NCBI RefSeq assembly: GCF_014200395.1
Contig: NZ_JACHBS010000001.1
Location: 868,001-932,000 of the forward strand
Length of the DNA stretch: 64,000 bases
From: Microcella frigidaquae
GTDB lineage: Bacteria; Actinomycetota; Actinomycetes; Actinomycetales; Microbacteriaceae
Reading direction: 5' to 3'
The notes beneath the pieces were generated by a model. That model was not told the origin of the DNA. It made no database searches and saw only the letters and a list, made by a program, of their open reading frames with translations. Shown here in pieces: positions 18,858 through 51,570 of this stretch; within the stretch, counting starts at the first letter, position 1; the number at the start of each line of letters is the position of its first letter. Both the position numbers and the translations under genes were made by a program.

Positions 18858-19060
18858 GGCTGTGCTTCACGCTCGGGAGAGTGGTTGGTCACGGTGCGTC
18901 GACTCCGGGTTCGGGTAGGTGAGCTGTCCGTCGCGAGGTGCTCCGGTTCTCCAGTGTGCGCTTTGCGTCAATGTTCGCCAAATGGGGGACATGGAGGGAT
19001 GTACGCATTGCGACAACTGCCCGTGATGTTTCACCTTTCGGGGGCGAACGATCCCCCGGC

Positions 19061-38592: not shown

Positions 38593-39297
38593 TCAGCGCG
38601 CCGCGGCCGCGACCAGGGCCGCGAACAGCCGCAGGTCGTCGGGCGACTCCTCGGGATGCCACTGCACGGCCACCCCGAACCGCGCGCCGTCGATGTCGAC
38701 GGCCTGCACCACGCCGTCGTCGCCGCGCGCGCTGACGGTGAGCCCGTCGGCGACCCGGTCGACGGCCTGGTGGTGGTAGCTCTTGACGGTCAGCTCCGGC
38801 CCGAGCATCCCGGCGATGCGCGTGCCCGGCACAGTGTGCACCGGGTTGTCGGCGAACGTCGCGTTGCCGTAGCTGTAGCGGGTCGAGCCGATGACGTCGG
38901 GCAGGTGCTGGATCAGCGTGCCGCCGAGGGCCACGTTGAGCACCTGCAGGCCGCGGCAGATGCCGAGGAAGGGCAGGTCGCGCTCGATGGCGGCGCGAAC
39001 GAGGGCGATCTCCCAGGCGTCGCGGTCGGGGCGCGGTGCGTCGTTCTCGGGATGCGGCTCCTGACCGTAGAGCCGCGCATCGACGTCTTTGCCGCCGGTG
39101 ATGATGAGCCCGTCGACGGCGTCGAGCACGCGGGCCACCGCGGCGGGAGTCGGCGGCTGGGGCGGCAGGGCCAGCACGACGCCGCCCGCCGCGATGACGC
39201 AGTCGGTGTAAACCTTCGGCAGCACCGTCGCGGAGCGCTTCCACAGCCCCATCTCGGTGTGCTCGAGGTAGGTGCTGAGCCCGATGGCGACGGTCAC
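38593..39297 (-). CDS. Gamma-glutamyl-GABA hydrolase-like class I amidotransferase (PuuD family)
   Basis: A 234-residue peptidase C26/PuuD-like enzyme. It has IITGGKDVDARLYG (65-78), nucleophile Cys114 (LGICRGLQVLNV), SYHHQAV, and the His/Glu pair in QWHPEES. In the Puu polyamine route this enzyme releases GABA from gamma-glutamyl-GABA. Here it could hydrolyse another gamma-glutamyl amide made by the GS-like ligase 3 kb away. It starts at GTG 39297, overlapping the stop of the small HTH gene (GTGA), so the two are translationally coupled. No CGTT-N8-AACG site was found in front of this pair. Confidence 0.88.
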   Translation of the reverse strand: MTVAIGLSTYLEHTEMGLWKRSATVLPKVYTDCVIAAGGVVLALPPQPPTPAAVARVLDAVDGLIITGGKDVDARLYGQEPHPENDAPRPDRDAWEIALVRAAIERDLPFLGICRGLQVLNVALGGTLIQHLPDVIGSTRYSYGNATFADNPVHTVPGTRIAGMLGPELTVKSYHHQAVDRVADGLTVSARGDDGVVQAVDIDGARFGVAVQWHPEESPDDLRLFAALVAAAAR

Positions 39298-39581
39298 GCG
39301 GTACCGCCGTCGGCGTCGGCGCCGTGGCCGTGCTCGCGGGCGATGATGGCGCGGGCGCGCTGGAGGGCGCGGACGAGTTCGGGCTGGCGGATGCCGAGCT
39401 CCTGGCTCACGTCGCTGTAGGTGCGGCCCTGCAGCAGCACGCCGGTGGCGGCGGCAACCAGGTCGTGCGGCAGGGCGGCGACCGACCGCTCGAGGGCGGA
39501 GCGGTCGAGTGCGGCGACGACCTGCTCGTGGCGGGCATCCGCGTGCGCGATCACATCGAGGTCGAAGTCGTCGTCGCGCAT
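39294..39581 (-). CDS. Small HTH protein with sigma-region-4-like helices
   Basis: A 95-residue acidic protein. Residues about 40-80 (LVAAATGVLLQGRTYSDVSQ and then ELGIRQPELVRALQRARAII) look like a helix-turn-helix of the sigma-70 region 4 or LuxR kind. It could be a DNA-binding regulator of the coupled gamma-glutamyl hydrolase gene, but no known family was assigned. ATG 39581 has GGAGACCC a few nt upstream on the reverse strand. It lies 110 bp downstream of the permease gene on the same strand. Confidence 0.6.
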   Translation of the reverse strand: MRDDDFDLDVIAHADARHEQVVAALDRSALERSVAALPHDLVAAATGVLLQGRTYSDVSQELGIRQPELVRALQRARAIIAREHGHGADADGGTA

Positions 39582-39691
39582 GAGGGTCTCCGTTCGAGCG
39601 TGCGGGCGGTTCGGGTCGTGCCGATGAAGCGGGTGGTTCCCGTGGAGCGCGGGGCGGCCGCCGTGACGACCGCCCCGCAGGAGTCAGCGGA

Positions 39692-41194
39692 TCAGGATGC
39701 GAAGTCCTTGACCAGCTTCTCGTTCTCCTTCTTGTTGATGAGCGCCACCACGTAGCCGATCACCAGGAAGATGAACGGCAGCAGCACCAGGAACCAGCCG
39801 AGCGGGTTCAGGAGCCACGCCGACTCGGGCAGCGACGGGTCGACCCCGTCGGGCACGGTGCCGGCCAGCAGGTTGAAGCGCGACATCACCAGGTAGAGAC
39901 CGATCGCCAGAAGCACGATCGAGACCGCCGGGGCGATGACCGTCTTCCAGAGCGACCCGCCGCCCTCGCGTCGGAAGTACACGATGACCGCGATCGAGAC
40001 GAGGATCTCGACGACGATCACCGACATCGCCGTGATCGAGCTCATCCAGAAGAACAGGTTGCCGACCGGGTCGAGACCCGCGACCGCGAACACGATCATC
40101 ACGATGGCGGCGAGAGCCGAGGTGATGACGACGCCGCCCACCGGGGCGCCGGCGCCGTTGGTCACCGCGGCACGGGCCGGAAGCACGCCGCCGCGCCCGA
40201 GGGCGAAGAAGTACCGCGAGGCCGCGTTCTGGAAGGCCAGCAGGCCGGCGAACAGGCTCGTGATGACGAGGATGGTCATGATCGTCACCAGCCACGAGCC
40301 GACGTACTGCTCGGTGAGGCTGAAGAGCACGCCGGCCGGGTTGGCCAGCACGTTGCCATCGGCATCCATCGAGCGCTCGACGACCTGGTCGATGATGCCG
40401 CTCGCGCCCATGCCCGTCACCATGCCGAACGACACGATGGCGAACAGGATGCTGATGGTCGAGATCGCGATGTAGGTGGCGAGCGGCACGGTGCGCTTCG
40501 GGTCCTTCGACTCCTCGCCGTAGATGGCGGTCGCCTCGAAGCCGATGAAGCTGGCGAGGGCGAAGGCGAGGGCGATGCCCGCCCCGCCCGCGAAGCCGCC
40601 GGCGAAGATGTTCTCGGGGCTGAACGACGCGGCGAGGTTCCAGCCCTCGGGGCCGCCGTTGGCGAGCATGACGATCGCGGCGATGAGCAGCGACAGGATC
40701 TCGAGCACCAGCAGCACGCCGAGAACCTTTGCGCCGATGTCGACGCTGAGCAGCGAGAGGCCGGTGACGAGGAGCCAGGCGATGAACGCCCAGACGTACC
40801 AGGGCAGGTCGACGCCGAGCTCGGCCATCGTGCCGGACACGAGACCGCCGAAGAAGCCGTAGATGGCGAGCTGGATCGTCACGTAGGTGAGCACGGACAC
40901 GAATGCCGATGCGACACCGGCGTTCACCCCCAGACCCTTGCCTACGTAGGCGAAGAACGCGCCCGAGTTGGTGACCTTCTGGCTCATCGTCGCGTAGCCG
41001 ACGCTGAACAGCAGGAGGGTCAGGCCGACGACGAGGTAGGCGCCGGGCGTGCCCGCGCCGTTGCCCACGAGCATCGCGACGGGCACGGCACCGGTGATGC
41101 CGACGAGCGGGGCCGACGCGGCGACCACGAAGAAGACGACGCCGATGACGCCGAGACGACCCTTGCGAAGGGTCGATTGGGGGGTGTCAGTCAT
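39692..41194 (-). CDS. APC-superfamily amino acid/amine permease
   Basis: A 500-residue transporter with about 12-14 membrane helices. The first helix carries the APC substrate-site motif FFVVAASAPLVGITGAVPV. GYATMSQKVTNSGAFFAYVG matches helix 2-3, and ALASFIGFEATAIYGEESKD-type sequence with PKRTVPLATYIAI marks helix 6. It probably imports an amino acid or amine by proton symport or exchange. ATG 41194 has GGAG 12 nt upstream; an in-frame ATG at 41212 is possible. It is divergent from the acetoacetate-decarboxylase-family gene, with two candidate MarR sites in the 172-bp gap. It is the likely uptake step of the catabolic regulon. Confidence 0.88.
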   Translation of the reverse strand: MTDTPQSTLRKGRLGVIGVVFFVVAASAPLVGITGAVPVAMLVGNGAGTPGAYLVVGLTLLLFSVGYATMSQKVTNSGAFFAYVGKGLGVNAGVASAFVSVLTYVTIQLAIYGFFGGLVSGTMAELGVDLPWYVWAFIAWLLVTGLSLLSVDIGAKVLGVLLVLEILSLLIAAIVMLANGGPEGWNLAASFSPENIFAGGFAGGAGIALAFALASFIGFEATAIYGEESKDPKRTVPLATYIAISTISILFAIVSFGMVTGMGASGIIDQVVERSMDADGNVLANPAGVLFSLTEQYVGSWLVTIMTILVITSLFAGLLAFQNAASRYFFALGRGGVLPARAAVTNGAGAPVGGVVITSALAAIVMIVFAVAGLDPVGNLFFWMSSITAMSVIVVEILVSIAVIVYFRREGGGSLWKTVIAPAVSIVLLAIGLYLVMSRFNLLAGTVPDGVDPSLPESAWLLNPLGWFLVLLPFIFLVIGYVVALINKKENEKLVKDFAS

Positions 41195-41227
41195 GGATCC
41201 GGAACTCCTCATTGAGTTGGGGTGAAT

Positions 41228-41243
41228 CGTTCGTGTCGAAACG
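41228..41243. promoter_or_regulatory. Candidate MarR operator 1 (permease side)
   Basis: CGTT-CGTGTCGA-AACG, 34 bp before the permease start. It matches the CGTT-N8-AACG pattern shared by five sites in the regulon. Confidence 0.5.
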
Positions 41244-41332
41244 ACCTTCGTTCAGGGTGGCGCACGTGCCCGCGCGCGTCAAGCACCGGGGGTGCCCGAT
41301 CGGCGCGGGGCGAACATCCCGAAACTGCCTAT

Positions 41333-41348
41333 CGTTTGTTCACGAATG
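41333..41348. promoter_or_regulatory. Candidate MarR operator 2 (acetoacetate-decarboxylase-family gene)
   Basis: CGTT-TGTTCACG-AATG. It ends 6 bp before the TAACCT -10 hexamer and so covers the -35 position of the leaderless promoter of the gene at 41367. Confidence 0.5.
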
Positions 41349-41354
41349 ATTCGG

Positions 41355-41360
41355 TAACCT
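41355..41360 (+). promoter_or_regulatory. -10 element TAACCT, leaderless gene at 41367
   Basis: TAACCT ends 6 nt before ATG 41367 and no ribosome-binding sequence is present. Confidence 0.55.
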
Positions 41361-41366
41361 GGCCGC

Positions 41367-42179
41367 ATGGCTGACCTCACCGGATTCCTCGCCCCGAAGA
41401 CCCCCAGCGGCGCGAGCGCGATCGTGCCCGACATGCCCTGGTACTACTCGGGCACGCTGCTCACCGCCGAGTACCGCACCGACCCGGCCAACGTCGCCGC
41501 CCTATTGCCCGAGGGTCTCGAGCTCGCCGATGACGACCCGGGCGCCGTCGCGCTCATTTGGGCCGACTGGCAGTCGTGCTCGGCCTCCGGCGCCGAGCTG
41601 CTCGACCCGCAGCGGTCGCAGTACCTCGAGACCTTCGCCGTCGTGCGCGTCAAGCACGAGGGCGTCACCTACTCGCGATGCGTCGCCATCTGGGTGACGA
41701 AAGACTTCGCGATCGCCCGCGGGTGGTTCCAGGGCTACCCCAAGAAGCTCGGGTCGATGGCCGTCACGCGCGTCATGAACGTCGGCCGCGCGGCGCCGCG
41801 CCTCGAGCCCGGCGCTAAGCTCGGCGCTTCGCTCGCCGCCTACGACCACCGCCTCGCCTCGCTCGTCGTGACCCTGCGCGAGCCGAGCGACACGAACGGC
41901 TTCGTCAATGGGCACGCGATGCTGCATTCGCGGTGGATGCCCTCCATCACCCCCGGTGCCGGCAACAGCCTCGACCAGCTCATCACCATGGGGGGCGTCG
42001 ACGCCGAGATCGGCGCCACCTGGGTGGGCGACTTCGAGCTCGAGCTGCACGACTCGCCCTGGGACGAGCTCGCGTCGATCCTGCCCGTGCAGGAGAAGAT
42101 CGCGGCGTACTACCGCGAGGTCGGCGTGACGTTCAACGGCGGAAAGCTCGTCGCGGATCGGTCGAACCCGACCGTGTAA
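41367..42179 (+). CDS. Acetoacetate decarboxylase (ADC) family protein
   Basis: A 270-residue ADC-superfamily protein. Its landmarks are AALLPEGLELADDDPG (44-59), YLETFAVVRVKHEGV and FQGYPKKLGSM (121-131). The Lys pair 126-127 occupies the place of the Schiff-base Lys and its neighbour in acetoacetate decarboxylase. Family members act on acetoacetate or on larger keto acids by aldol/dehydration chemistry. The substrate here is unknown. It is divergent from the permease and controlled by the same candidate operator type, so it probably serves the same catabolic route. It converges on the GS-like gene; an inverted repeat lies between the two. Confidence 0.82.
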   Translation: MADLTGFLAPKTPSGASAIVPDMPWYYSGTLLTAEYRTDPANVAALLPEGLELADDDPGAVALIWADWQSCSASGAELLDPQRSQYLETFAVVRVKHEGVTYSRCVAIWVTKDFAIARGWFQGYPKKLGSMAVTRVMNVGRAAPRLEPGAKLGASLAAYDHRLASLVVTLREPSDTNGFVNGHAMLHSRWMPSITPGAGNSLDQLITMGGVDAEIGATWVGDFELELHDSPWDELASILPVQEKIAAYYREVGVTFNGGKLVADRSNPTV

Positions 42180-42214
42180 GCCCCCGGGCCAGTCGGGGCC
42201 CGCGCTGCTGCGTG

Positions 42215-42295
42215 ACAAATCACGGATGTAGGGCACCTTCTCTGCCGCGCATCCGCAACGAAAAGGGGGCGAACGGCTCGAAGTCCGTGATTTGT
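42215..42295. repeat. 12-bp inverted repeat between convergent genes
   Basis: ACAAATCACGGA (42215-42226) and its exact complement (42284-42295) enclose 57 nt in the 159-bp gap between the ADC-family and GS-like gene ends. It may terminate transcription in both directions or be a small palindromic element. Confidence 0.55.
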
Positions 42296-42338
42296 GGCGC
42301 GCACGCGAGGAGCGCGAGGGAGCGCTGCGCCTCTCGGC

Positions 42339-43688
42339 TCAGAGATCCAGGAAGTACTCCCGCACCTCCCACGGGGTGACGTCGCGGGTCGTCGGGTCGG
42401 GCACCTCTGCGGCGTAGCGCTCGATCTCGTCGCGCTTCATGACCTCGAAGACGTTGACGAGGTCGCCGCCGAGCAGCTCGATGAGGGCGCTGTCGGCGCG
42501 GAGGGCATCCAGAGCCTCGCCCAGCGACATGGGGAGCACGGCCTGCGACTCGTCCTCGTAGCTGTAGCCGACGGCGGCCGGCGGGGCGGCGAGCTGGCGG
42601 CGGATGCCGTCGAGACCGGCGGCGAGCAGGGCCGCGGTCATGAGGTACGCGTTGGCCGCGCCGTCGCCGAGGCGCATCTCGAGGCGGGTGCCGCCGCCGC
42701 GCTCCGGCGGAACGCGCAGCATCGCGCTGCGGTTGTCGTAGCCCCAGTTGGCGCGGTACGGCGCGAGCGTGTCGGGGCCGAGGCGCTTGAAGGCGTTGAT
42801 GGTCGGGTTGCAGAAGGCGGTGAGGGCCGCGGCGTGCTCCACGATGCCCGCGATCATGTGCTGGGCGAGCGCGCTCAGCTTGTCTCCGTCGTGCATGAGG
42901 TTCTCGCCCTTGGCGTCGACGAGGGACATATGCAGGTGGAACCCGCTGCCGCCCTCGTCGCTCCACGGCTTGCCGGCGAAGGTCGCCGCCTGGCCGACGC
43001 GCGCGATGACGTCCTTCACACCAGCCTTGAGCATGAAGGCTCGGTCGCAGGCGTCGAGCGCCTCGCCGTGCCAGATGTTGATCTCGTACTGGCTCGGGCT
43101 GAACTCGTGGTTGCCGGCGAAGACGCCGATGCGCAGCTGGTCGAGCATGCGCAGCAGGTGCAGGAAGGTGCCCTTGGGGTCGACCGTCGCGCCCGTCGTG
43201 TAGACGCGGCCGGGCTGCGTGAGCGCCCGGCTGAAGCCGCCCTCGGGGTTGCGGTCGGCGATGTAGAACTCGAGCTCGGGGCCGACGAGCGGGGTGTAGC
43301 CGAGCTTCGCGTACTCGCCCACGATGCGCTCGAGCAGCACCCGCGGCGAAAGCGGGCTCGGCTGGCCGTCGGGGTTGTTGGCGCCGGCGACGACGAAGGC
43401 CACGCCGGGCTCCCACGGCAGGGCGCGCCAGCTGCCCGGAACGATCTGGCTGATGAAGTCTTCGAGCCCGTTGCTGAGCACGTCGGCACCGTCGAGCACG
43501 CCGCCCTGCGTCGTCGTCACCCACACGCCCTGGCAGAACGCCGGGCCGCCGTGGCTGATCTTGTCGAGCTCGCTGACGAGCAGGTCTTTCGACCGCACGG
43601 TGCCGATGATGTCGGCGTAGATGACGCGCAGCACGTCGATCTTGGCCGAGAGCAGCTCGCTCTGCAGGGCGGACAGGCTGTGGCTCAT
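42339..43688 (-). CDS. Glutamine-synthetase-like gamma-glutamyl-amine ligase (PuuA/GlnA4 type)
   Basis: A 449-residue GS-fold enzyme. It has the N-terminal beta-grasp (VLRVIYADIIGTVRSKDL), the metal-binding GPELEFYIADRNP, NHEFSPSQYEINI and GSGFHLHMSLVD, and the ATP/Glu-binding NPTINAFKRLGPDTLAPY with RLEMRLGDGAANAYL. This pattern is that of gamma-glutamylpolyamine or gamma-glutamylamide synthetases, not housekeeping GlnA, whose adenylylation region is absent. It probably couples glutamate to an amine with ATP. ATG 43688 has AAGGAG 8 nt upstream. It is divergent from the amidotransferase gene across a shared operator. Confidence 0.88.
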   Translation of the reverse strand: MSHSLSALQSELLSAKIDVLRVIYADIIGTVRSKDLLVSELDKISHGGPAFCQGVWVTTTQGGVLDGADVLSNGLEDFISQIVPGSWRALPWEPGVAFVVAGANNPDGQPSPLSPRVLLERIVGEYAKLGYTPLVGPELEFYIADRNPEGGFSRALTQPGRVYTTGATVDPKGTFLHLLRMLDQLRIGVFAGNHEFSPSQYEINIWHGEALDACDRAFMLKAGVKDVIARVGQAATFAGKPWSDEGGSGFHLHMSLVDAKGENLMHDGDKLSALAQHMIAGIVEHAAALTAFCNPTINAFKRLGPDTLAPYRANWGYDNRSAMLRVPPERGGGTRLEMRLGDGAANAYLMTAALLAAGLDGIRRQLAAPPAAVGYSYEDESQAVLPMSLGEALDALRADSALIELLGGDLVNVFEVMKRDEIERYAAEVPDPTTRDVTPWEVREYFLDL

Positions 43689-43750
43689 GTGCGACTCCTT
43701 CGTGGCACTGGTGTTGGCGCGGATGGCCCGCAGGCGGCTCGAACGAAAAT

Positions 43751-43766
43751 CGTTCGGACTCAAACG
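43751..43766. promoter_or_regulatory. Candidate MarR operator 3 (GS-like / amidotransferase)
   Basis: CGTT-CGGACTCA-AACG in the divergent gap. It ends 6 bp before TAGACT (43773-43778), the likely -10 of the amidotransferase gene, so a bound repressor would block both promoters. Confidence 0.55.
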
Positions 43767-43804
43767 AGATAGTAGACTACCGACCGACTCGATGGGGAGG
43801 TCTG

Positions 43805-44521
43805 ATGCGCGCTCTGTTCATCCAGCACGATCACGTGAGCCCGCTGGGCCCGGTCGGCGAGCGATTCGCCCACCACGGCTTCGAGATCGACACGCACCTG
43901 GTCGTGCCCGAGGGCTCGTTCGCGAACCCCAACATCGAGACCGCCTTCCCGAACGCCGCCGACTACGACGTGCTCATCCCGCTCGGTGCCCCCTGGGGCG
44001 CGTGGGACGACGCCTGCATCGGCCGCTGGCTGCTGCCCGAGGTCGCGTGGCTGGGCGACGCCGTTCGCAGCGGGATGCCCGTCCTGGGCATCTGCTTCGG
44101 CGGCCAGCTGCTCGCGCGCGCCCTCGGCGGCTCGGTCGCGCCGGGCCCGCGCGGCGAGATCGGGTGGACCGCCATCTGGAGCGACCAGCCGGCCCTGGTC
44201 GGCGAGGGCCCGTGGTTCCAGTTCCACTACGACCGCTGGGTCGTGCCGCCCGGCGCCGTCGAGATCGCGCGCACGCCGTCGGCCTCGCAGGCCTTCGTCG
44301 TCGAGCGCGCGCTGGCCGTGCAGTTTCACCCCGAGCTCGATGCGGCGGGGCTGCGGGGGTGGCTCGACTGGGGAGGAGCATCCAAGGTGCGCGACGACGG
44401 TCAAGACCCCGACGTCATGCTCGCGCAGACGGTCGCGACCGCCGCGGCGGCCCGCGCGCGCACGTTCGCGCTCGTCGACGCCTTCCTCACCGACGTCGCG
44501 GGGCTCCTCCCCCGCGCCTGA
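43805..44521 (+). CDS. Class I glutamine-amidotransferase-like protein
   Basis: A 238-residue GATase with the triad Cys97 (LGICFGGQLLARALGG), His175 and Glu177 (AVQFHPE). Stand-alone class I GATases of this kind occur beside GS-like genes in aniline-degradation clusters (AtdA1/AtdA2, TdnQ/TdnT), where the GS-like enzyme makes gamma-glutamylanilide. The same pairing here suggests a role in gamma-glutamyl amide turnover or amine release. GGGGAGG lies 4-5 nt before ATG 43805. It is convergent with the P450 gene; the intervening gap holds two large hairpins. Confidence 0.83.
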   Translation: MRALFIQHDHVSPLGPVGERFAHHGFEIDTHLVVPEGSFANPNIETAFPNAADYDVLIPLGAPWGAWDDACIGRWLLPEVAWLGDAVRSGMPVLGICFGGQLLARALGGSVAPGPRGEIGWTAIWSDQPALVGEGPWFQFHYDRWVVPPGAVEIARTPSASQAFVVERALAVQFHPELDAAGLRGWLDWGGASKVRDDGQDPDVMLAQTVATAAAARARTFALVDAFLTDVAGLLPRA

Positions 44522-44539
44522 CCGTCGTCGAGGGCGCCG

Positions 44540-44591
44540 ATCGGTCACTCGTTGGCGTTGCTCGGCGGCGACACCGTAACGAGTGACCGAT
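44540..44591. repeat. Palindromic repeat, copy 1
   Basis: ATCGGTCACTCGTT (44540-44553) and its complement (44578-44591) enclose 24 nt, directly after the amidotransferase stop. The same core recurs at 44730-44795. The 326-bp gap 44522-44847 contains these two copies and no gene I can support. Confidence 0.7.
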
Positions 44592-44729
44592 AGGCGGGGA
44601 TGTCGACATGGACGGCAGCGCGCAGCGAACCCGACAACGCACACCCCTGCCGCGGCACCGCGACACGGGGCGCGGGATGCGTGCTCGCGATCGCGGCGCC
44701 GTGCGAGCATCCCGCCCCACTCGTTCGAG

Positions 44730-44795
44730 AGCGTCGATCGGTCACTCGTTGCGCCGTCGACGAGTACGAACCGCAACGAGTGACCGATCGACGCT
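44730..44795. repeat. Palindromic repeat, copy 2 (24-bp perfect arms)
   Basis: Arms 44730-44753 and 44772-44795 are exact complements with an 18-nt loop. They contain the core of copy 1, and the flanks also match copy 1 in part, so one copy probably arose from the other. It lies just before the P450 3' end. Confidence 0.75.
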
Positions 44796-44847
44796 GCGGA
44801 GCGCACGCGGGGGCACCAGCAGGACGCGGCGCCCCTGCGGTGGCGGC

Positions 44848-46089
44848 TCAGACCACGCGGACGGGCATCCGCTTGATGCCGTGCACGAAGTTGCTGCGGA
44901 GGAAGTCGACGTCGCCGGCGGGTGCGAGGGTGACGTCGCGGGTCAGCAGGTCTTCGAACATGATGCGCAGCTCGATGCGGGCCAGAGCGTTGCCGAGACA
45001 CATGTGCGGGCCGCCGCGCCCGAACGACATGTGCTCGTTCGGGTTGCGGGTCACGTCGAAGCGGTAGGGCTCGTCGAAGACGGCGTCATCGCGGTTGCCC
45101 GAGGCGAACCAGACGACGACCTTGTCGCCCTCGGCGATCTGCGTGCCCGAGAACTCGACGTCCTTCGTCGCCGTGCGACGGAAGTGGTACACCGGCGAGG
45201 CGTAGCGCAGGAACTCCTCGACCGCCCAGGGGATGAGCGAGGGGTCGTTGCGCAGGATGTCGAGCTGCTCGGGGTTCGCCATGAGGTTCTTCATGGTGTG
45301 GGTGATCGTGTGCCGCGTGGTCTCGTTGCCCGCGACGACGAGCAGCAGGAAGTTCGTGTTGAACTCGTGCTCGGTGAGCTTCTGCCCGTCGCTCGGCTCG
45401 CCATCGGCGAGCAGCGTCACCAGGTCGGTGCCGCCCTTGCCGCGCCGCTCGGCGGCGAGGTGCTTGCCGTACTCGTAGACCTCGATCGCGGCCGGCGAGC
45501 GGAACGGCACGTGCTTGTACTCCTCGCTCTCGGCCGAGTCGATGAGAAGGTCGGCGTGCTCCGGGTCGGTGTTGCCGACCATGCGGTTGCCCCAGTCGAT
45601 GAGCTGCCCGGTGTCGCTGTCGGGCACGCCGAGCAGGCGGGCGAGCACGCGGATCGGGAAGTCGGCGCTGACCTCGTCGACGAAGTCGAACTCCTTCTTC
45701 GCGAGCGCCGCATCGAGGGTCTTCGCCGTGATGCCGCGCAAGAAGGTCTCGTACTTGGCGACCGCCTGCGGGGTGAACTGGCCCTGCAGCATGCGGCGCA
45801 GCGCGCGGTGGCGCAGGCCGTCGGTCTCGAGCAGCGACCGGCGCTGGTCCTGCATCCCCGGGTCGACCTCTTCGAGGTTGGTGAACTTCGTCGAGGTGAA
45901 GGTGTCGGGGTCACGCAGAACGCGCACGATGTCGTGGTACCGCATGACCGACCAGAACCCGTGGTTGGGCGACTCCTCGGTCGACCAGTGGAGACCGGGC
46001 GTCGCGCGCAGCTCGTCGAAGACGCCCCAGGGTGCGCCGTGAGCGAAGAGATCGAGATCGGCCAGGGTGAGAGCGGTCGTGGTCGACAT
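44848..46089 (-). CDS. Cytochrome P450
   Basis: A 413-residue soluble bacterial P450. The I-helix reads LLVVAGNETTRHTI (near 254-267), the ExxR helix AVEEFLRYASPVYHFRR, and the heme loop FGRGGPHMCLG with thiolate Cys364. The overall pattern is close to the CYP124/125/142-like actinobacterial groups, but I cannot name a subfamily. Electrons probably come from the [3Fe-4S] ferredoxin and reductase encoded at 50149-51570 in the neighbouring operon. It is divergent from the marR gene with a candidate operator between them. It is the presumed oxygenating step of the cluster; the substrate is unknown. Confidence 0.92.
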   Translation of the reverse strand: MSTTTALTLADLDLFAHGAPWGVFDELRATPGLHWSTEESPNHGFWSVMRYHDIVRVLRDPDTFTSTKFTNLEEVDPGMQDQRRSLLETDGLRHRALRRMLQGQFTPQAVAKYETFLRGITAKTLDAALAKKEFDFVDEVSADFPIRVLARLLGVPDSDTGQLIDWGNRMVGNTDPEHADLLIDSAESEEYKHVPFRSPAAIEVYEYGKHLAAERRGKGGTDLVTLLADGEPSDGQKLTEHEFNTNFLLLVVAGNETTRHTITHTMKNLMANPEQLDILRNDPSLIPWAVEEFLRYASPVYHFRRTATKDVEFSGTQIAEGDKVVVWFASGNRDDAVFDEPYRFDVTRNPNEHMSFGRGGPHMCLGNALARIELRIMFEDLLTRDVTLAPAGDVDFLRSNFVHGIKRMPVRVV

Positions 46090-46116
46090 GGGCGCCTGCT
46101 TTCGTAGGAAGCGATT

Positions 46117-46132
46117 TGTTCGGATGCTAACG
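46117..46132. promoter_or_regulatory. Candidate MarR operator 4 (P450 / marR)
   Basis: On the reverse strand the site reads CGTT-AGCATCCG-AACA. It lies 28 bp before the P450 start and 102 bp before the marR start, placed to control both. Confidence 0.5.
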
Positions 46133-46234
46133 AACTTCGGCGCGCGAGTCGAGCCTCAGCGTGCTTCGGGCCCGAATGAGTGAGGATAGAGCCCGGGATC
46201 GCGGCCGTGCACGGCCGCACCGAGGGGAGCAGAG

Positions 46235-46735
46235 ATGCCGAGTCCGCACACGCTGGCCGAGACCGAGGAGCAGGTCGCCGGCAAGGTCGGAAGCCTGCCG
46301 CTCGACGTCGAGGCGATGGCGGTCATCTCCAACCTGTTCCGCGCCGCCAACGCGACCCGTAACTACCTCGAGCGCAGCGTGCTCGCCGCGAGCGGCCTGT
46401 CGTGGACGGCCTTCGTCGTGCTCTGGGTCACCTGGATCTGGGAGCCCATCGAAACCCGGCAGATCGCCGAGGAGGGCGGCTTCTCGAAGGCGACTCTCAC
46501 CGGGGTGCTCGGCACCCTCGAAGCGAAGGGCTACCTGTTGCGGGCGCGCAGCGAGCGCGACGGCCGCCTGGTCGACGTGACGATGACCCCCGAGGGTCGC
46601 GCCCTCATGAGCACCCTCTTCCCCGCCTTCAACCAGCACGAGTCGACGCTGACCGGCAGCCTCTCGAGCGCTCAGCGCCGCGAGCTGGCCGACATGCTGC
46701 GGGCGATCACGCACATCGCCGAGAACGATCGGTAG
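46235..46735 (+). CDS. MarR-family transcriptional regulator
   Basis: A 166-residue regulator with dimerisation helices and a winged HTH. The recognition region runs TRQIAEEGGFSKATLTGVLG (about 70-89), and the wing is RARSERDGRLVDVTMTPEG (about 100-118). MarR proteins bind palindromes as dimers and are usually released by aromatic ligands. GGGGAG lies 7-8 nt before ATG 46235. It sits between the P450 gene and the aldehyde-dehydrogenase operon, and CGTT-N8-AACG sites at five surrounding promoters make it the likely local repressor. Confidence 0.88.
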   Translation: MPSPHTLAETEEQVAGKVGSLPLDVEAMAVISNLFRAANATRNYLERSVLAASGLSWTAFVVLWVTWIWEPIETRQIAEEGGFSKATLTGVLGTLEAKGYLLRARSERDGRLVDVTMTPEGRALMSTLFPAFNQHESTLTGSLSSAQRRELADMLRAITHIAENDR

Positions 46736-46817
46736 CGCATCCGCTTCAGGATGCGGCGCTGGGGTCGTACCGATCCCCTACCGCTCGACACCCCGGGTCG
46801 GTTAGTATCGCCCAGAA

Positions 46818-46833
46818 CGTTCGTATCCGAACG
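46818..46833. promoter_or_regulatory. Candidate MarR operator 5 (meta-cleavage operon), best palindrome
   Basis: CGTTCG-TATC-CGAACG is a perfect 6+6 inverted repeat. It starts 10 bp after TAGTAT (46803-46808), the probable -10, and so would sit on the transcription start of the operon beginning at GTG 46860. Confidence 0.65.
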
Positions 46834-46859
46834 ACTCGCGACAGCAAGGGAGCAACCGC

Positions 46860-48323
46860 GTGCATCAGGTTGAGTTGGCCGGCCTCACCGTCGACACCCG
46901 GCACTACATCGGCGGCCAGCGGTTCGCGAGCGAGCAGACGTTCGAGAGCATCTCCCCTATCGACGGCACCGTGCTCGCCCATGTCGCCCGCGGCGGCGCG
47001 GGCGAGGCCGACGCCGCCGTCTGGGCCGCCCGCAACGCGTTCCCCGGCTGGCGCGACCTCGGCCCCCAGAGTCGCGGCGCCATCCTGCACCGACTCGCCG
47101 ACCTCATCGAGGCGAACATCGAGCCGCTCGCGCAGCTCGAGACCCTCGACAACGGATCGCTGCTGCGCAGCCACCGCCGCGGCGTCATGCCGCGCGTGGC
47201 CATGAACATCCGCTTCTTCGCCGACTGGGCGATGCAGAGGCTCGAGCACCCGGTCTGGCAGACCCGCGGGCACGACAACGTCGTCACGTGGGACCCCTCG
47301 GGCGTCGCCGCGATCATCACCCCCTGGAACGCGCCGCTCATGCTCGCCACCTGGCGCATCGGCCCGGCCCTCGCCGCCGGGGACACGGTCGTGCTGAAGC
47401 CCGCGGAGTGGACGCCGCTGACCGCGAGCGTTTTCGCCGATCTGGCCGAGCAGGCCGGGATGCCCCCGGGCGTGTTCAACGTCGTGCAGGGCTACGGCGC
47501 CGAGGTCGGTGCGGCCCTCGTGGCGCATCCCGGAATCGCCCGCATCGCGTTCACCGGCTCGGTGCCGACCGCGAAGGCGATCATGCGCTCGGCGGCCGAC
47601 AACCTCACCCCCGTCAGCTTCGAGCTCGGCGGCAAGAGCCCGTTCATCGTCACCGACGACGCCGACCTCGACCTCGCCGTCGATCTGGCGATCGAGCAGT
47701 ACGACAACGCCGGCCAGGTGTGCCTCTCGGGCACGCGCCTGCTCGTGCACGAGAAGATCGCCGACGCCTTCGCCGAGCGCGTCGCGGCCCGCGCCGCGCA
47801 GATCGTGCAGGGCGACCCGCGCGACGAGGCGACGCAGATCGGCCCGCAGATCCACCGCGTGCACCTCGAGCGGGTCGCCGGCTTCGTCGAGCGCGCGCAG
47901 GCCGACGGGGCGCAGATCGCCTTCGGGGGCGGGCCCAACGACGATCTCGGCGGCCTGTACTTCCGGCCCACCCTCATCACCGGCGCGAAGCCGGGCAGCG
48001 AGATCCTCACCGCCGAGGTGTTCGGCCCCGTACTCGCGATGCAGACCTTCGCCACCGACGAGGAGGCCGTCGAGGTCGCCAACGCGACCGAGTATGGCCT
48101 CGCCGCCGTCGTCGTCTGCGGCGACCGCGAGCGCGCCGAACGGCTGACGAAGAATCTCGTCGCCGGCACCATCTGGGTCAACTGCTTCTTCGTCCGCGAC
48201 CTCGCCGCCCCCTTCGGCGGCAGCAAGAAGAGCGGCATCGGCCGCGAAGGCGGCGTGTGGTCGTTCGACTTCTACGCCGACGTCAAGAACACCGTCTACG
48301 CACCCGCAGGGTGGAAGGAGTAA
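46860..48323 (+). CDS. Aldehyde dehydrogenase, probable 5-carboxymethyl-2-hydroxymuconate semialdehyde dehydrogenase
   Basis: A 487-residue NAD(P)-dependent aldehyde dehydrogenase. It shows IITPWNAPLM (152-161), KPAEWTPLTA, FTGSVPTAKAI, general base Glu255 (FELGGKS) and nucleophile Cys288 (NAGQVCLSG). The dioxygenase gene next to it (3-bp gap) and the FAH-family gene after that are the HpaD and HpaG steps of homoprotocatechuate degradation, so the HpaE step is the best functional guess. The start is GTG 46860 with AAGGGAGC 8 nt upstream. It is the first gene of a five-gene operon. Confidence 0.87.
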   Translation: MHQVELAGLTVDTRHYIGGQRFASEQTFESISPIDGTVLAHVARGGAGEADAAVWAARNAFPGWRDLGPQSRGAILHRLADLIEANIEPLAQLETLDNGSLLRSHRRGVMPRVAMNIRFFADWAMQRLEHPVWQTRGHDNVVTWDPSGVAAIITPWNAPLMLATWRIGPALAAGDTVVLKPAEWTPLTASVFADLAEQAGMPPGVFNVVQGYGAEVGAALVAHPGIARIAFTGSVPTAKAIMRSAADNLTPVSFELGGKSPFIVTDDADLDLAVDLAIEQYDNAGQVCLSGTRLLVHEKIADAFAERVAARAAQIVQGDPRDEATQIGPQIHRVHLERVAGFVERAQADGAQIAFGGGPNDDLGGLYFRPTLITGAKPGSEILTAEVFGPVLAMQTFATDEEAVEVANATEYGLAAVVVCGDRERAERLTKNLVAGTIWVNCFFVRDLAAPFGGSKKSGIGREGGVWSFDFYADVKNTVYAPAGWKE

Positions 48324-48326
48324 GTC

Positions 48327-49259
48327 ATGGGAAAGGTCGTCGGCGCCGCGATCCTCGCGCACGTGCCCACCATCATGCTGCCGCAGGACGTGCGGTACGA
48401 CTTGAACGAGGGCAAGGAGATCACTCTCGTTCCCGGTCTCAAGCGCCTGCGCGCGGAGGTCATGGAGACCCTCGACTACGACACCGTCGTCGTGCTCGAC
48501 TCGCACTGGGCGACCACGGTCGAGTTCGTCATCACCGCGCAGGCAGAGCGCAGCGGGCTCTTCACGAGCGAGGAGCTGCCGCGCGGCATGTCGCAGATCC
48601 CCTACGCCTTCAAGGGCGACCCCGAGCTCGCCCGCGCCGTCGCGAACTACGACGAGAAGAACGGCACCTGGGTCACGCCGATCAGCGACCCGCACCTGCC
48701 GATCTTCTACGCCACCGTCAACCTCTGGCACTACCTCGGGCGCGGGCTCGACAAGCGCTGGGTGAGCATGTCGGTCTGCCAGACGGCGACCACCGACGAC
48801 TTCCTGCGGGCCGGCCGTGCGCTCGGCGAGGCCATTCGCGACAGCGACCGCAAGGTGCTGCTGCTCGCCTCCGGCGCGCTGTCGCACACCTTCTACAAGC
48901 TGCGCGACCTGCGCAAGCACGAGGCCAGTGACCCGAAGCACATCTACAGCCCGGAGGCGCGCGAGGCCGACCTCGAGCGCATCGAGCGGATGAAGGCCGG
49001 CGACCACAAGCGCATCCTCGACACCATGGACGAGTTCAAGAAGTTCAAGCCCGAGGCCAACTTCAGCCACTGGCTCACCATGGCCGGCGCGACCGGCGAG
49101 GAGGCCAACACGGCCAAGGGCGTCATGTACTCCGAGTACGAAAACTCGATCGGCACCGGCCAGGTGCACATCTACTTCCCCGAGCCGGAGGGCGGCTTCC
49201 CGCTGCCGAAGGACGTCACCCTGTCGCGCGACGATTCTGTCGAGGCGGGTGCCGCGTGA
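48327..49259 (+). CDS. hpaD: Class III extradiol dioxygenase, homoprotocatechuate 2,3-dioxygenase type
   Basis: A 310-residue LigB-type extradiol dioxygenase. It aligns by eye with E. coli HpaD through the N-terminal GAAILAHVPTIMLP (His12), VVVLDSHWATT (His60), ASGALSHTFYK and the C-terminal GTGQVHIYFPEP. The two His and a distal Glu would hold Fe(II). HpaD cleaves 3,4-dihydroxyphenylacetate at the 2,3 bond to 5-carboxymethyl-2-hydroxymuconate semialdehyde, the substrate expected for the upstream dehydrogenase. ATG 48327 lies 3 bp after that gene's stop, and the next gene overlaps by 4 bp. Confidence 0.88.
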   Translation: MGKVVGAAILAHVPTIMLPQDVRYDLNEGKEITLVPGLKRLRAEVMETLDYDTVVVLDSHWATTVEFVITAQAERSGLFTSEELPRGMSQIPYAFKGDPELARAVANYDEKNGTWVTPISDPHLPIFYATVNLWHYLGRGLDKRWVSMSVCQTATTDDFLRAGRALGEAIRDSDRKVLLLASGALSHTFYKLRDLRKHEASDPKHIYSPEAREADLERIERMKAGDHKRILDTMDEFKKFKPEANFSHWLTMAGATGEEANTAKGVMYSEYENSIGTGQVHIYFPEPEGGFPLPKDVTLSRDDSVEAGAA

Positions 49260-50149
49260 CCGAGTACCGCCGCATCCTCCTCGACGGGGCGGCCGTGCAG
49301 GTGGTGCGGCACGGCGACGAGCTGCGCGCATCCGATGGCCGCACGGTCGGGGTCGACGAGGCGGTGCACCTGCCGCCCACCGAGCCGACCAAGATCATCG
49401 CGGTGCACCTGAACTACCCGAGCCGCAGCGACGAGTTCATGACGAAGCTGCCGCCGGCACCCACGTACTTCCACAAGCCGATCACGGCGCTCAACAGCCA
49501 CAAGGGCGCCGTCGTGCGTCCGCGCGGCTGCCAGTGGCTCAACTACGAGGGCGAGATTGTCATCATCATAGGCAAGACCTGCCGCAACGTCTCCCCCGCC
49601 GAGGCGGGCGACTACATCGCCGGGTACTCCGTGGGCAACGACTTCGGTCTGCACGACTTCCGCGACACGGATGCGGGCTCGATGCTGCGCGTCAAGGGCA
49701 GCGACACGCTCGCCCCCGTCGGGCCGGGGCTCGTGACCGACTGGGACTTCCGCGGCAAGACGATCCGCACCCTCGTGAACGGCAAGGTCGTCCAGGAGGA
49801 CTCGACCGACACCATGGAGTGGGACATGCACTACCTGGTGGCCGACCTCGCCCGCACGATCACGCTCGTGCCGGGCGACATGATCTACTCGGGCACGCCC
49901 GCGAACTCGCGGCCGGTGCAGCCGGGCGACATCGTCGAGGTGGAGGTCGACGGCCTCGGCCGCCTCACCAACCACGTCGTCGAGGGCCCCGAGCCGATCC
50001 GCACCGACGTGGGCGCCCAGCCGACCTCGAGCGAGGAGGTCGTCTCGACCGCGCTCGGCGGCGACTGGGAGTTCCGCGGCATCCGCACCCCGTCGAAAGA
50101 CCTGTACCCGTCCCGTATCGAGGAAGCCAGCACCGAGGAGAAGAACTGA
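49256..50149 (+). CDS. Fumarylacetoacetate-hydrolase-family protein, HpaG-like isomerase/decarboxylase
   Basis: A 297-residue FAH-fold protein. It has HLNYPSRSDEF, FHKPITALNSHKG, the metal-binding YEGEIVIIIGK, DYIAGYSVGNDFGLHDFRD and the C-terminal VPGDMIYSGTPAN with PGDIVEVEVDGLG. In the homoprotocatechuate route FAH-fold HpaG decarboxylates and isomerises the oxidised ring-cleavage product, which fits the order dehydrogenase, dioxygenase, FAH protein. The start is GTG 49256, overlapping the dioxygenase stop (GTGA). The last base of the stop codon overlaps the ferredoxin ATG. Confidence 0.85.
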   Translation: MTEYRRILLDGAAVQVVRHGDELRASDGRTVGVDEAVHLPPTEPTKIIAVHLNYPSRSDEFMTKLPPAPTYFHKPITALNSHKGAVVRPRGCQWLNYEGEIVIIIGKTCRNVSPAEAGDYIAGYSVGNDFGLHDFRDTDAGSMLRVKGSDTLAPVGPGLVTDWDFRGKTIRTLVNGKVVQEDSTDTMEWDMHYLVADLARTITLVPGDMIYSGTPANSRPVQPGDIVEVEVDGLGRLTNHVVEGPEPIRTDVGAQPTSSEEVVSTALGGDWEFRGIRTPSKDLYPSRIEEASTEEKN

Positions 50150-50343
50150 TGATCAAGATCTACGTCGACATGGACAAGTGCCAGCACTACGGCCAGTGCG
50201 TGTTCGAGGCTCCCGAGGTGTTCCAGCTGAATGCCGACGACAAGCTCGAGTACCAGGCCGAGGCGCCCGATGACATGCTCGCCGACCTCGAGTCGGCGGC
50301 CGACGTCTGCCCCATGCAGGCGATCTTCCTCACCAAGGAGTAG
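50149..50343 (+). CDS. [3Fe-4S] ferredoxin, P450 electron carrier type
   Basis: A 64-residue acidic ferredoxin with Cys11, Cys17 and Cys54 (DKCQHYGQC and DVCPMQA). This is the three-Cys, [3Fe-4S] pattern of ferredoxins that feed actinobacterial P450s; the fourth Cys of a [4Fe-4S] cluster is absent. ATG 50149 overlaps the preceding stop (TGATG). It is followed 6 bp later by its presumed reductase. The P450 at 44848-46089 is the only visible acceptor. Confidence 0.9.
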   Translation: MIKIYVDMDKCQHYGQCVFEAPEVFQLNADDKLEYQAEAPDDMLADLESAADVCPMQAIFLTKE

Positions 50344-50349
50344 TCGGCG

Positions 50350-51570
50350 ATGACGGATGCTCCGCTGCTGATCGTCGGAGCCTCGATGGCGGGCCTGCGC
50401 ACCGCCGAGGGTGCGCGGCGCGCCGGCTATGCGGGGCCCATCACCTTCCTCGGGGCCGAGGCGCACGCGCCGTACAACCGGCCGCCGCTGTCGAAGGAGC
50501 TTCTGCAGACCGAGGGGCAGGGTCACGCCGACGTGGCCTTCCCGATCCGCTCGGCCCTCGAGGAGGGCGTGGAGTGGGTGCTCGGCCGGGCGGCCACCGC
50601 GCTCGATGTCGAGCAGCGCGTGGTGGTCGACGAGACCGGGCAGGAGCATCCGTACCGCGCGCTCGTGATCGCGACGGGGCTGCGCCCGAAGCCGCTGCCG
50701 ATCGAAACCCACGGGCTCGGCGGCATCCACGTGCTGCGCACGCTCGACGACGCCGTCGCCCTGCGGGCCGCGCTGCGACCGGGCGCGAACGTCGTCATTC
50801 TCGGCTCGGGCTTCGTCGGCTGCGAGATCGCGGCGACGGCGGCGAAGAACGGCGCGAACGTCTCGATAGTGTCGCAGAGCCGCGTGCCGCTGCAGCGCGC
50901 GCTCGGCGCCCAGCTCGGCGCCGAGATGCGGCGACGGCACGAGGCGCACGGGGTGCGCTTCTTCTGCGGCGAGTCGCTGTTCGGCCTGGTCGGCGAACCC
51001 GATGTCGAGCGCGTCATCCTGACGAGCGGCGTGATGCTCGAGTGCGACGTGCTGGTCGTCGCGATCGGCAGCGACCCGAACACCGAGTGGCTGCAGGGCT
51101 CGGGTCTCGACGCGACCGACGGTGTGCTCGTCGACGCGGGCCTGCGCGCCATCGGTGTCGATGGCACCGTGCACCCCGAGATCGTCGCCGTCGGCGATGT
51201 CGCCCGCTATGCGAACCCGCTGTTCGACGACGTTCCGCGTCGGGTCGAGCACTGGAACCTGCCGACCGAGACGGGCAAGCGCGCGGGCGCGATCCTCGCC
51301 GCGCAGCTCGCCGGCCAAGACTGCGCACCGCTCGTCGCCGAGGGCTTCGCCCCGCTGCCCTCGTTCTGGAGCGACCAATACGACGCCCACGTTCTCGCCT
51401 TCGGCATGACGTACCTCGCCGACCGCAGCGAGCTCGTCGCGGGCGCGCTCGACGACGAGTGCGTGCTCGAGTACTACCGCGGCGACGAGCTCGTCGGCGT
51501 CTGCGGCATCGGGATGCGGAGCCTCGTGCAGAGCTACCGCACGCGCTTCGCCGCGCCCGCGCGGGCGTAG
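50350..51570 (+). CDS. FAD-dependent NAD(P)H:ferredoxin reductase
   Basis: A 406-residue pyridine nucleotide-disulfide oxidoreductase-type reductase of the putidaredoxin-reductase group. The FAD site is LLIVGASMAGLRTAEGARR (7-25), the NAD site NVVILGSGFVGCEIAATAAK (near 142-161), and the second FAD contact EIVAVGDVARYANPLF. A C-terminal reductase domain follows. It would pass electrons from NAD(P)H to the adjacent ferredoxin and on to the P450. It is the last gene of the operon; the next gene has its own leaderless-type promoter. Confidence 0.9.
   Translation: MTDAPLLIVGASMAGLRTAEGARRAGYAGPITFLGAEAHAPYNRPPLSKELLQTEGQGHADVAFPIRSALEEGVEWVLGRAATALDVEQRVVVDETGQEHPYRALVIATGLRPKPLPIETHGLGGIHVLRTLDDAVALRAALRPGANVVILGSGFVGCEIAATAAKNGANVSIVSQSRVPLQRALGAQLGAEMRRRHEAHGVRFFCGESLFGLVGEPDVERVILTSGVMLECDVLVVAIGSDPNTEWLQGSGLDATDGVLVDAGLRAIGVDGTVHPEIVAVGDVARYANPLFDDVPRRVEHWNLPTETGKRAGAILAAQLAGQDCAPLVAEGFAPLPSFWSDQYDAHVLAFGMTYLADRSELVAGALDDECVLEYYRGDELVGVCGIGMRSLVQSYRTRFAAPARA

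Follow-up and report, generated by a model that had tools for sequence, protein, structure and literature searches.

A predicted MarR regulon with a common operator across an eleven-gene catabolic cluster of Microcella frigidaquae

The locus examined in this study is an eleven-gene catabolic cluster of Microcella frigidaquae, carried on a 64,000-nucleotide stretch of contig NZ_JACHBS010000001.1 (positions 868,001 to 932,000; this whole stretch is called the window, and positions are those of the window unless stated otherwise). Five palindromic dyads lie in the promoter-bearing gaps of this cluster, and it is highly likely, judging from sequence comparison, that they serve as operators for the MarR-family product of the gene at 46235-46735. 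Several described systems resemble parts of this arrangement. HpaR is described as a MarR-family repressor of the extradiol meta-cleavage operon hpa-meta, which serves homoprotocatechuate degradation in Escherichia coli W and Yersinia, and as acting through inverted-repeat operators in the promoter; its operator is given as TTAA-N4-TTAA (PMC7180172), while the dyad here is TCGTT-N8-AACGA. CouR, an actinobacterial MarR repressor of p-hydroxycinnamate catabolism in Rhodococcus jostii, is likewise described as having every promoter of its regulon marked by an inverted repeat, divergent promoters and that of its own gene included, and as being released by an aromatic pathway intermediate; however, its box is cATTGA--TCAATg with a 5-bp spacer, its ligand is p-coumaroyl-CoA and its pathway genes are different (PMC4737184). 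The CouR boxes are reported to overlap -35 elements and to act by steric repression (PMC4737184). The peroxide-sensing OhrR provides the best-scoring solved structure by sequence for the MarR of the window (2pfb), but OhrR boxes are reported to be ACAATTNAATTGT-like (PMC6034001). In addition, the MarR of the window scores 45.6 bits against an NCBIfam OhrR cut-off of 200 and lacks the reactive cysteine; because its 166-amino-acid sequence contains no cysteine, it cannot be a cysteine redox switch. RosR, also a peroxide-sensing MarR, has the consensus TTGTTGAYRYRTCAACWA, with the same NNGTT-N8-AACNN geometry as the motif found here. Outside the regulators, pathways for the gamma-glutamylation of amines (Puu for putrescine, 1-naphthylamine, and ethanolamine through GlnA4) share with this cluster a glutamine-synthetase (GS)-like ligase, a class-I glutamine amidotransferase (GATase)-like hydrolase and an amino-acid-type permease, but the ligase here is tied to a cytochrome P450 and a LigB-type meta-cleavage operon.

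Cluster genes were located in 80 loci containing relatives of the window's MarR gene (L001-L080), and a 24-bp matrix was trained on L016-L073 only, where MarR is 58-71% identical to that of the window. Loci L001-L015, which are Microcella-like, were held out. The remaining seven loci (L074-L080) are distant, with MarR 42-46% identical, and come from records named Acidimicrobiales/Acidimicrobiaceae, actinobacterium/Actinomycetota and, once, Acidobacteria. The loci are not independent, several being closely related to one another and two having a MarR 94-96% identical to the window's, and counts from the training loci are not independent of the matrix. A gap was called occupied at 12 bits or more, and whole loci were scanned at 13 bits or more. 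Training converged on the 24-bp dyad aaaTCGTTcGgatcCgAACGAttt. A de novo count of 5+5 dyads over 249 homologous gaps put TCGTT-N8-AACGA first, with 81 regions containing it; after one shuffle of each gap, the commonest dyad was in 3.

With this held-out matrix, the five sites took ranks 1 to 5 in the window. The highest score, 29.8 bits, belongs to predicted operator 3 (43750..43767, TCGTTCGGACTCAAACGA), between the divergent GS-like and GATase genes, followed by predicted operator 4 (46116..46133, TTGTTCGGATGCTAACGA, 29.6 bits), between the divergent P450 and marR genes, a placement from which autoregulation of marR is predicted. Two further sites share the gap between the genes for the APC-type permease and the acetoacetate-decarboxylase (ADC)-family protein: predicted operator 2 (41332..41349, TCGTTTGTTCACGAATGA, 27.4 bits) lies just 5' of a -10-like hexamer of the ADC-family gene, and predicted operator 1 (41227..41244, TCGTTCGTGTCGAAACGA, 22.3 bits) lies on the permease side. 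Predicted operator 5 (46817..46834, ACGTTCGTATCCGAACGA, 26.1 bits) precedes an operon encoding an aldehyde dehydrogenase (ALDH), the LigB-type protein, a fumarylacetoacetate-hydrolase (FAH) family protein, a ferredoxin (Fd) and a ferredoxin reductase (FdR). The sixth-best score in the window was 8.5 bits, at 19034. Simulation of 200 windows of 64 kb with the dinucleotide content of the real one (first-order Markov) gave 22 sites of at least 12 bits in all, the best of which (21.2 bits) scored below each of the five.

The sequence-only reading had described these sites as five CGTT-N8-AACG palindromes. All five are present, and the matrix places them, as that reading had it, in every promoter-bearing gap from the permease to the meta-cleavage operon, with none before the hydrolase pair (best score in 39582-39691, -11.4 bits). 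The form given for them, however, was too strict. It is exact at three sites only (41228, 43751 and 46818, against 0.35 matches expected; three were reached in 1 of 100 shuffles), while 41333 (CGTTTGTTCACGAATG) and 46117 (TGTTCGGATGCTAACG) are imperfect copies. The 2.55-Mb genome contains the literal form 7 times, including the 3 in the window, and a reversed control 8 times; the literal form by itself is thus weak evidence, and it was rejected as the true motif for leaving out two of the five sites and for being no more frequent than its control. The motif is wider and looser. A search with CGTTCGNNNNCGAACG allowing 3 mismatches gave 3501 matches and was useless. Two degenerate 18-base patterns were also run against the own genome. 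Scored with the matrix's 18-mer core, a single additional site (24.0) joined the five reported ones (the weakest at 19.7) ahead of every other listed match, the best of which reached 16.6; the expectation of rarity elsewhere in the genome thus failed for the literal form and held for the wider motif.

Comparison of the same gaps in related genomes showed the motif to be conserved. Among the held-out loci, the APC/ADC gap was occupied in 10 of 10 (two sites each), the GS/GATase gap in 13 of 13, the P450/MarR gap in 15 of 15 and the MarR/ALDH gap in 14 of 15 by the gap call (15 of 15 in the whole-locus scan), compared to 0 of 1060 coding stretches of equal length. Occupancy in the training loci was 37/38, 46/47, 52/52 and 27/27 for the same four gaps, and 19/19 for training loci in which a divergent hydrolase gene is interposed. 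The convergent gap between MarR and PuuD, which needs no promoter, had no site in any of 13 training loci. Altogether, 359 sites of at least 13 bits were found over the 80 loci, none of them within the matched part of a cluster gene. In the rearranged clusters of L065, L066 and L068 the sites precede the relocated P450 and ferredoxin genes, and in the seven distant loci, whose gene order differs, sites of 21-29 bits occupy the GS/FAH gap (7/7) and sites of 19.7-29.2 bits lie 5' of P450 in all 4 loci holding that gap.

These data also bear on whether the dyads are instead terminators, RNA hairpins or chance palindromes of GC-rich DNA. Such an origin would fit the control-level genome-wide frequency of the literal form and the terminator-like score of site 43750 on one strand. 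However, divergent gene starts, which call for no terminator between them, flank four of the five sites, and the remaining one stands just 5' of the ring-cleavage operon; the bases are conserved across genera, not the symmetry alone; no simulated site matched the weakest of the five; and the coding controls were empty. The terminator or hairpin explanation is contradicted by the held-out loci and the coding controls and was rejected, and we consider it exceedingly improbable.

The number and spacing of the sites vary among loci. The paired APC/ADC sites are 66-151 bp apart, and given this range and the relatedness of the loci no fixed helical phasing is claimed. The P450/marR gap of the window holds a weak second dyad on its marR side (46162..46179, TGCTTCGGGCCCGAATGA; 6.7 bits, below threshold), which is possibly a decayed operator; two sites occur in this gap in 22 of 52 training loci and 1 of 15 held-out loci, and the second site of L005 has the same 46-bp spacing as the dyad at 46162.

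The association of the motif with this particular MarR was followed through a survey of 299 genomes of the family, in which strict-pattern matches were counted genome-wide, in the cluster and elsewhere alike. MarR matches were found in 37 genomes, of which one at 36% identity was set aside, leaving 36 MarR genomes and 263 others. At least two strict-pattern matches were present in all 36 MarR genomes compared to 24 of the 263 others, a contrast that was put to a Fisher test. This MarR and the operator were found together in 12 genera of one family (the 36%-identical match left out) and in the more distant loci, and several of the MarR-bearing genomes are small (1.2-1.8 Mb). LigB was detected in 32 of the 299 genomes, every one also containing MarR, and in two same-genus genomes without MarR (G235 and G275) neither LigB nor the motif was found. 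Contigs of three genomes (L165, L166 and L167, from G012, G206 and G251) each retain the permease, GS, GATase, P450 and MarR genes together with four sites scoring 23-35 bits; no ring-cleavage genes adjoin the cluster there, and the genomes, which are only 77-83% complete, gave no LigB match.

A different factor could in principle own the dyads, for example a regulator encoded elsewhere or the 95-amino-acid helix-turn-helix (HTH)-like protein at 39294..39581, which has no Pfam match and is encoded beside a C26 peptidase-type hydrolase gene. The HTH-like protein adjoins the cluster, where it was the one other candidate regulator noticed, and the 11 of 299 genomes in which it was found all contain MarR; furthermore, a dyad of similar form occurs in MarR-less genomes of genus g15, where L162 has it 5' of a different MarR-family gene. 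Nevertheless, at an E value of 1e-6 the HTH-like protein has no match in 25 of the 36 genomes that combine MarR with the motif, on which ground it was rejected as the regulator. MarR is the sole predicted regulator among the eleven cluster genes, its own promoter gap is occupied in 67 of 67 loci (all fetched through MarR, and 52 of them training loci), and the motif stays with MarR where ring-cleavage genes are missing. Ownership by another factor is therefore judged very unlikely.

The position of the sites relative to putative promoters suggests how the predicted regulon may work. In the window, the -10-like hexamers agree with the earlier description: TAACCT lies 5 bases after 41349, TAGACT 5 bases after 43767, and TAGTAT precedes 46817. 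Across loci, and counted with no chance control, TAnnnT occurs 5 bases downstream of the ADC-side site in 23 of 47, and for the ALDH site, counted over 66 loci, it falls within the operator in 49, immediately upstream of it in 34 and at the spacing seen in the window in 16; the median distance from the centre of the operator 2 counterpart to the ADC start is 28 bp. Sites placed this near to, or on top of, -10-like hexamers fit a dimer that represses by steric hindrance. A MarR homodimer would place one winged helix on each TCGTT/AACGA half-site and cover the -10 or start region of the permease, ADC, GS-like ligase and GATase, P450, marR and ring-cleavage promoters; a pathway intermediate, probably aromatic, would then release MarR and switch on all eleven genes together. 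Alternatively, MarR might bind the sites and mainly activate, or act as a dual regulator, for which there is a precedent in HpaR, described as an activator of T6SS4 that acts from a position well upstream of the promoter (PMC7180172). The placement of the ADC and ALDH sites beside or across -10-like hexamers suits a steric block, and an activating or dual role seems very unlikely. The analysis shows the motif, where it lies, how it is conserved, its link with this MarR and its specificity; binding by this MarR, repression rather than activation, the inducer and the substrate are inferred.

Several observations weigh against this reading of the dyads. One locus (L060) has sites in just 2 of its 4 gaps. 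At least one strict-pattern match occurs in 79 of the 263 MarR-less genomes, and the reversed control reaches two or more matches in 12 of the 36 MarR genomes (148 forward matches compared to 42 control matches in all). A 22-bit site lies 5' of a cydA-like gene (named by eye) both in G128, which has MarR, and in G270, in which no MarR was found (L125:3758 and L127:3994); this site may be that of a different regulator, or a hairpin. In L160-L162, from genus g15, two dyads closely resembling the motif stand in tandem some 30 bp apart, near 1509 and 1539-1541; no match to the window's MarR was found in that genus, and in L162 the pair precedes a different MarR-family gene. Because of the cydA-side site in G270 and the g15 pair, the dyad is not exclusive to this MarR. 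Moreover, a consensus sigma-70 scan of 41100-46900 gave no promoter, so that the -10 assignments depend on TAnnnT matches counted with no chance control. A single MarR regulon over the cluster, as originally proposed, has nonetheless held up, with a dyad in every promoter gap of the eleven-gene cluster that tracks MarR through 299 genomes and recurs beside a MarR of 42-46% identity; as a prediction, it is well supported by comparative genomics.

The motif also led to genes outside the cluster. The further site in the own genome, a sixth predicted operator at 2304035-2304052 of that genome (L119:4036-4053), is 1.4 Mb from the cluster. It ends 25 bases short of the GTG of a gene for a luciferase-like monooxygenase. 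Genome G189 has this site in front of this gene as well, and homology between the two stretches starts one base before the site; these two genomes were the only ones of 38 searched with the gene at an E value of 1e-40. The cluster itself includes relatives of the luciferase-like gene (56-59% identical) in L046, L058, L062, L070, L077 and L080, and one in pieces in L078; the operator thus picked out a gene tied to the pathway by synteny in those loci. Succinate-semialdehyde dehydrogenase (SSADH) was surveyed in 30 loci from 38 genomes searched, 8 genomes yielding no SSADH locus. The four genomes of g60, an Aurantimicrobium-type genus, each have a nearby site of 20-24 bits, and in the pair examined in detail its start lies 77 bp 5' of the ATG. 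Of the other 26 loci, only L139 (14.8), L158 (13.5) and L153 (23.7) reached 13 bits, the L153 site being the one before the luciferase-like gene, and the best SSADH locus of the window's genome had no site at this threshold. SSADH was rejected as a general regulon member. An additional candidate is an aspartase-like gene, with 17-21-bit sites 5' of it in L024 and L048 (Pfam match for L024); six more loci have such sites in the corresponding flanking position. Another is a second aldehyde dehydrogenase preceded by 19-23-bit sites in L022, L029, L031 and L056 (Pfam match for L056). A 21.5-bit site also lies 5' of a katG-like gene (named by eye) in G059 (L124:3880), with an identical 18-mer in G229.

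Judged by its winged-helix domain (Pfam MarR PF01047, 43.1 bits against a cut-off of 24.6) and by the palindromic operator-like sites in its own and its target promoters, the 166-amino-acid protein encoded at 46235..46735 (plus strand) is a member of the MarR family. It scores 42.8 bits against HpaR (TIGR02337), below the equivalog cut-off of 121.2, and a search for homologous proteins returned generic names only among the best 120 of 1730 matches, except for one YwaE. In the alignment of MarR proteins, 52 of its 166 positions are common to the two MarR lineages, and no variation is seen among 30 aligned sequences at the helix residues G82, K85, T87, L88, G90 and V91 or in the aromatic set W57, F60, W64, W67 and W69.

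The remaining ten genes comprise those for the APC-type amino acid/amine permease (39692..41194, minus strand; Pfam AA_permease); the ADC superfamily protein, which is MppR-like (41367..42179, plus; Pfam ADC; nearest solved chain MppR 4jm3); the GS-like protein, a predicted gamma-glutamyl ligase (42339..43688, minus; Pfam Gln-synt_C); the GATase-like hydrolase (43805..44521, plus; Pfam GATase); the P450 (44848..46089, minus; Pfam p450; best-scoring solved chain CYP125MRCA 8vxi); and, all on the plus strand, the HpaE-like ALDH (46860..48323; Pfam Aldedh), the HpaD-like LigB-type extradiol dioxygenase (48327..49259; Pfam LigB), the HpaG-like FAH family protein (49256..50149) and the predicted P450 partners Fd (50149..50343; Pfam Fer4_15) and FdR (50350..51570; Pfam Pyr_redox_2 and Reductase_C). 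The named families that match the three ring-cleavage proteins best include HpaD, HpaE and HpaG, with scores below the equivalog cut-offs in each case (HpaD, TIGR02298, 128.9 against 315.95 bits; HpaE, TIGR02299, 529.2 against 638.35; HpaG, 190.3 against 276.4), and the LigB-type protein also matches 2-aminophenol 1,6-dioxygenase chains. Similarly, the GS-like protein reaches 232.9 bits compared to the gamma-glutamylputrescine synthetase cut-off of 650. Unlike hpa-meta, the predicted regulon adds a permease, a gamma-glutamyl ligase, a P450, a ferredoxin and an ADC-family gene. A dispersed intergenic palindrome whose arms read ATCGGTCACTCGTT is also present twice in the window (44540-44591 and 44737-44788); genome-wide, the arms gave 16 matches in 8 pairs with 36 bp between starts, and the reversed control gave none.

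The GS-like ligase, the hydrolases and the permease suggest gamma-glutamylation of an amine, and an aromatic amine or amino compound is the favoured substrate. One repressor coupling the P450 gene (operator 4) to the Fd/FdR operon (operator 5) makes biochemical sense. We see about even chances that the cluster represents an undescribed actinobacterial pathway, in which an amine-bearing aromatic is taken up, gamma-glutamylated, hydroxylated by the P450 (with Fd and FdR supplied from the ring-cleavage operon) and cleaved by a homoprotocatechuate-like route, and in which one MarR and one operator, common to Microbacteriaceae and distant actinobacterial lineages, have recruited lineage-specific helpers (the luciferase-like monooxygenase in trans in the window's genome, SSADH in the Aurantimicrobium-type genomes, and the aspartase-like gene and second aldehyde dehydrogenase in others). 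Literature searches, not all of them aimed at this cluster, found no paper dealing with it by title or abstract start. The regulatory system is very probably ordinary in kind, a MarR-controlled catabolic regulon, for a pathway on which these searches gave no paper. A motif first read by eye has become a testable regulon with a calibrated matrix and a sixth target. The operator ties genes far apart on the chromosome to one pathway and may therefore be used to find missing pathway steps, while the MarR regulator could help to identify the inducer and, through it, the substrate.

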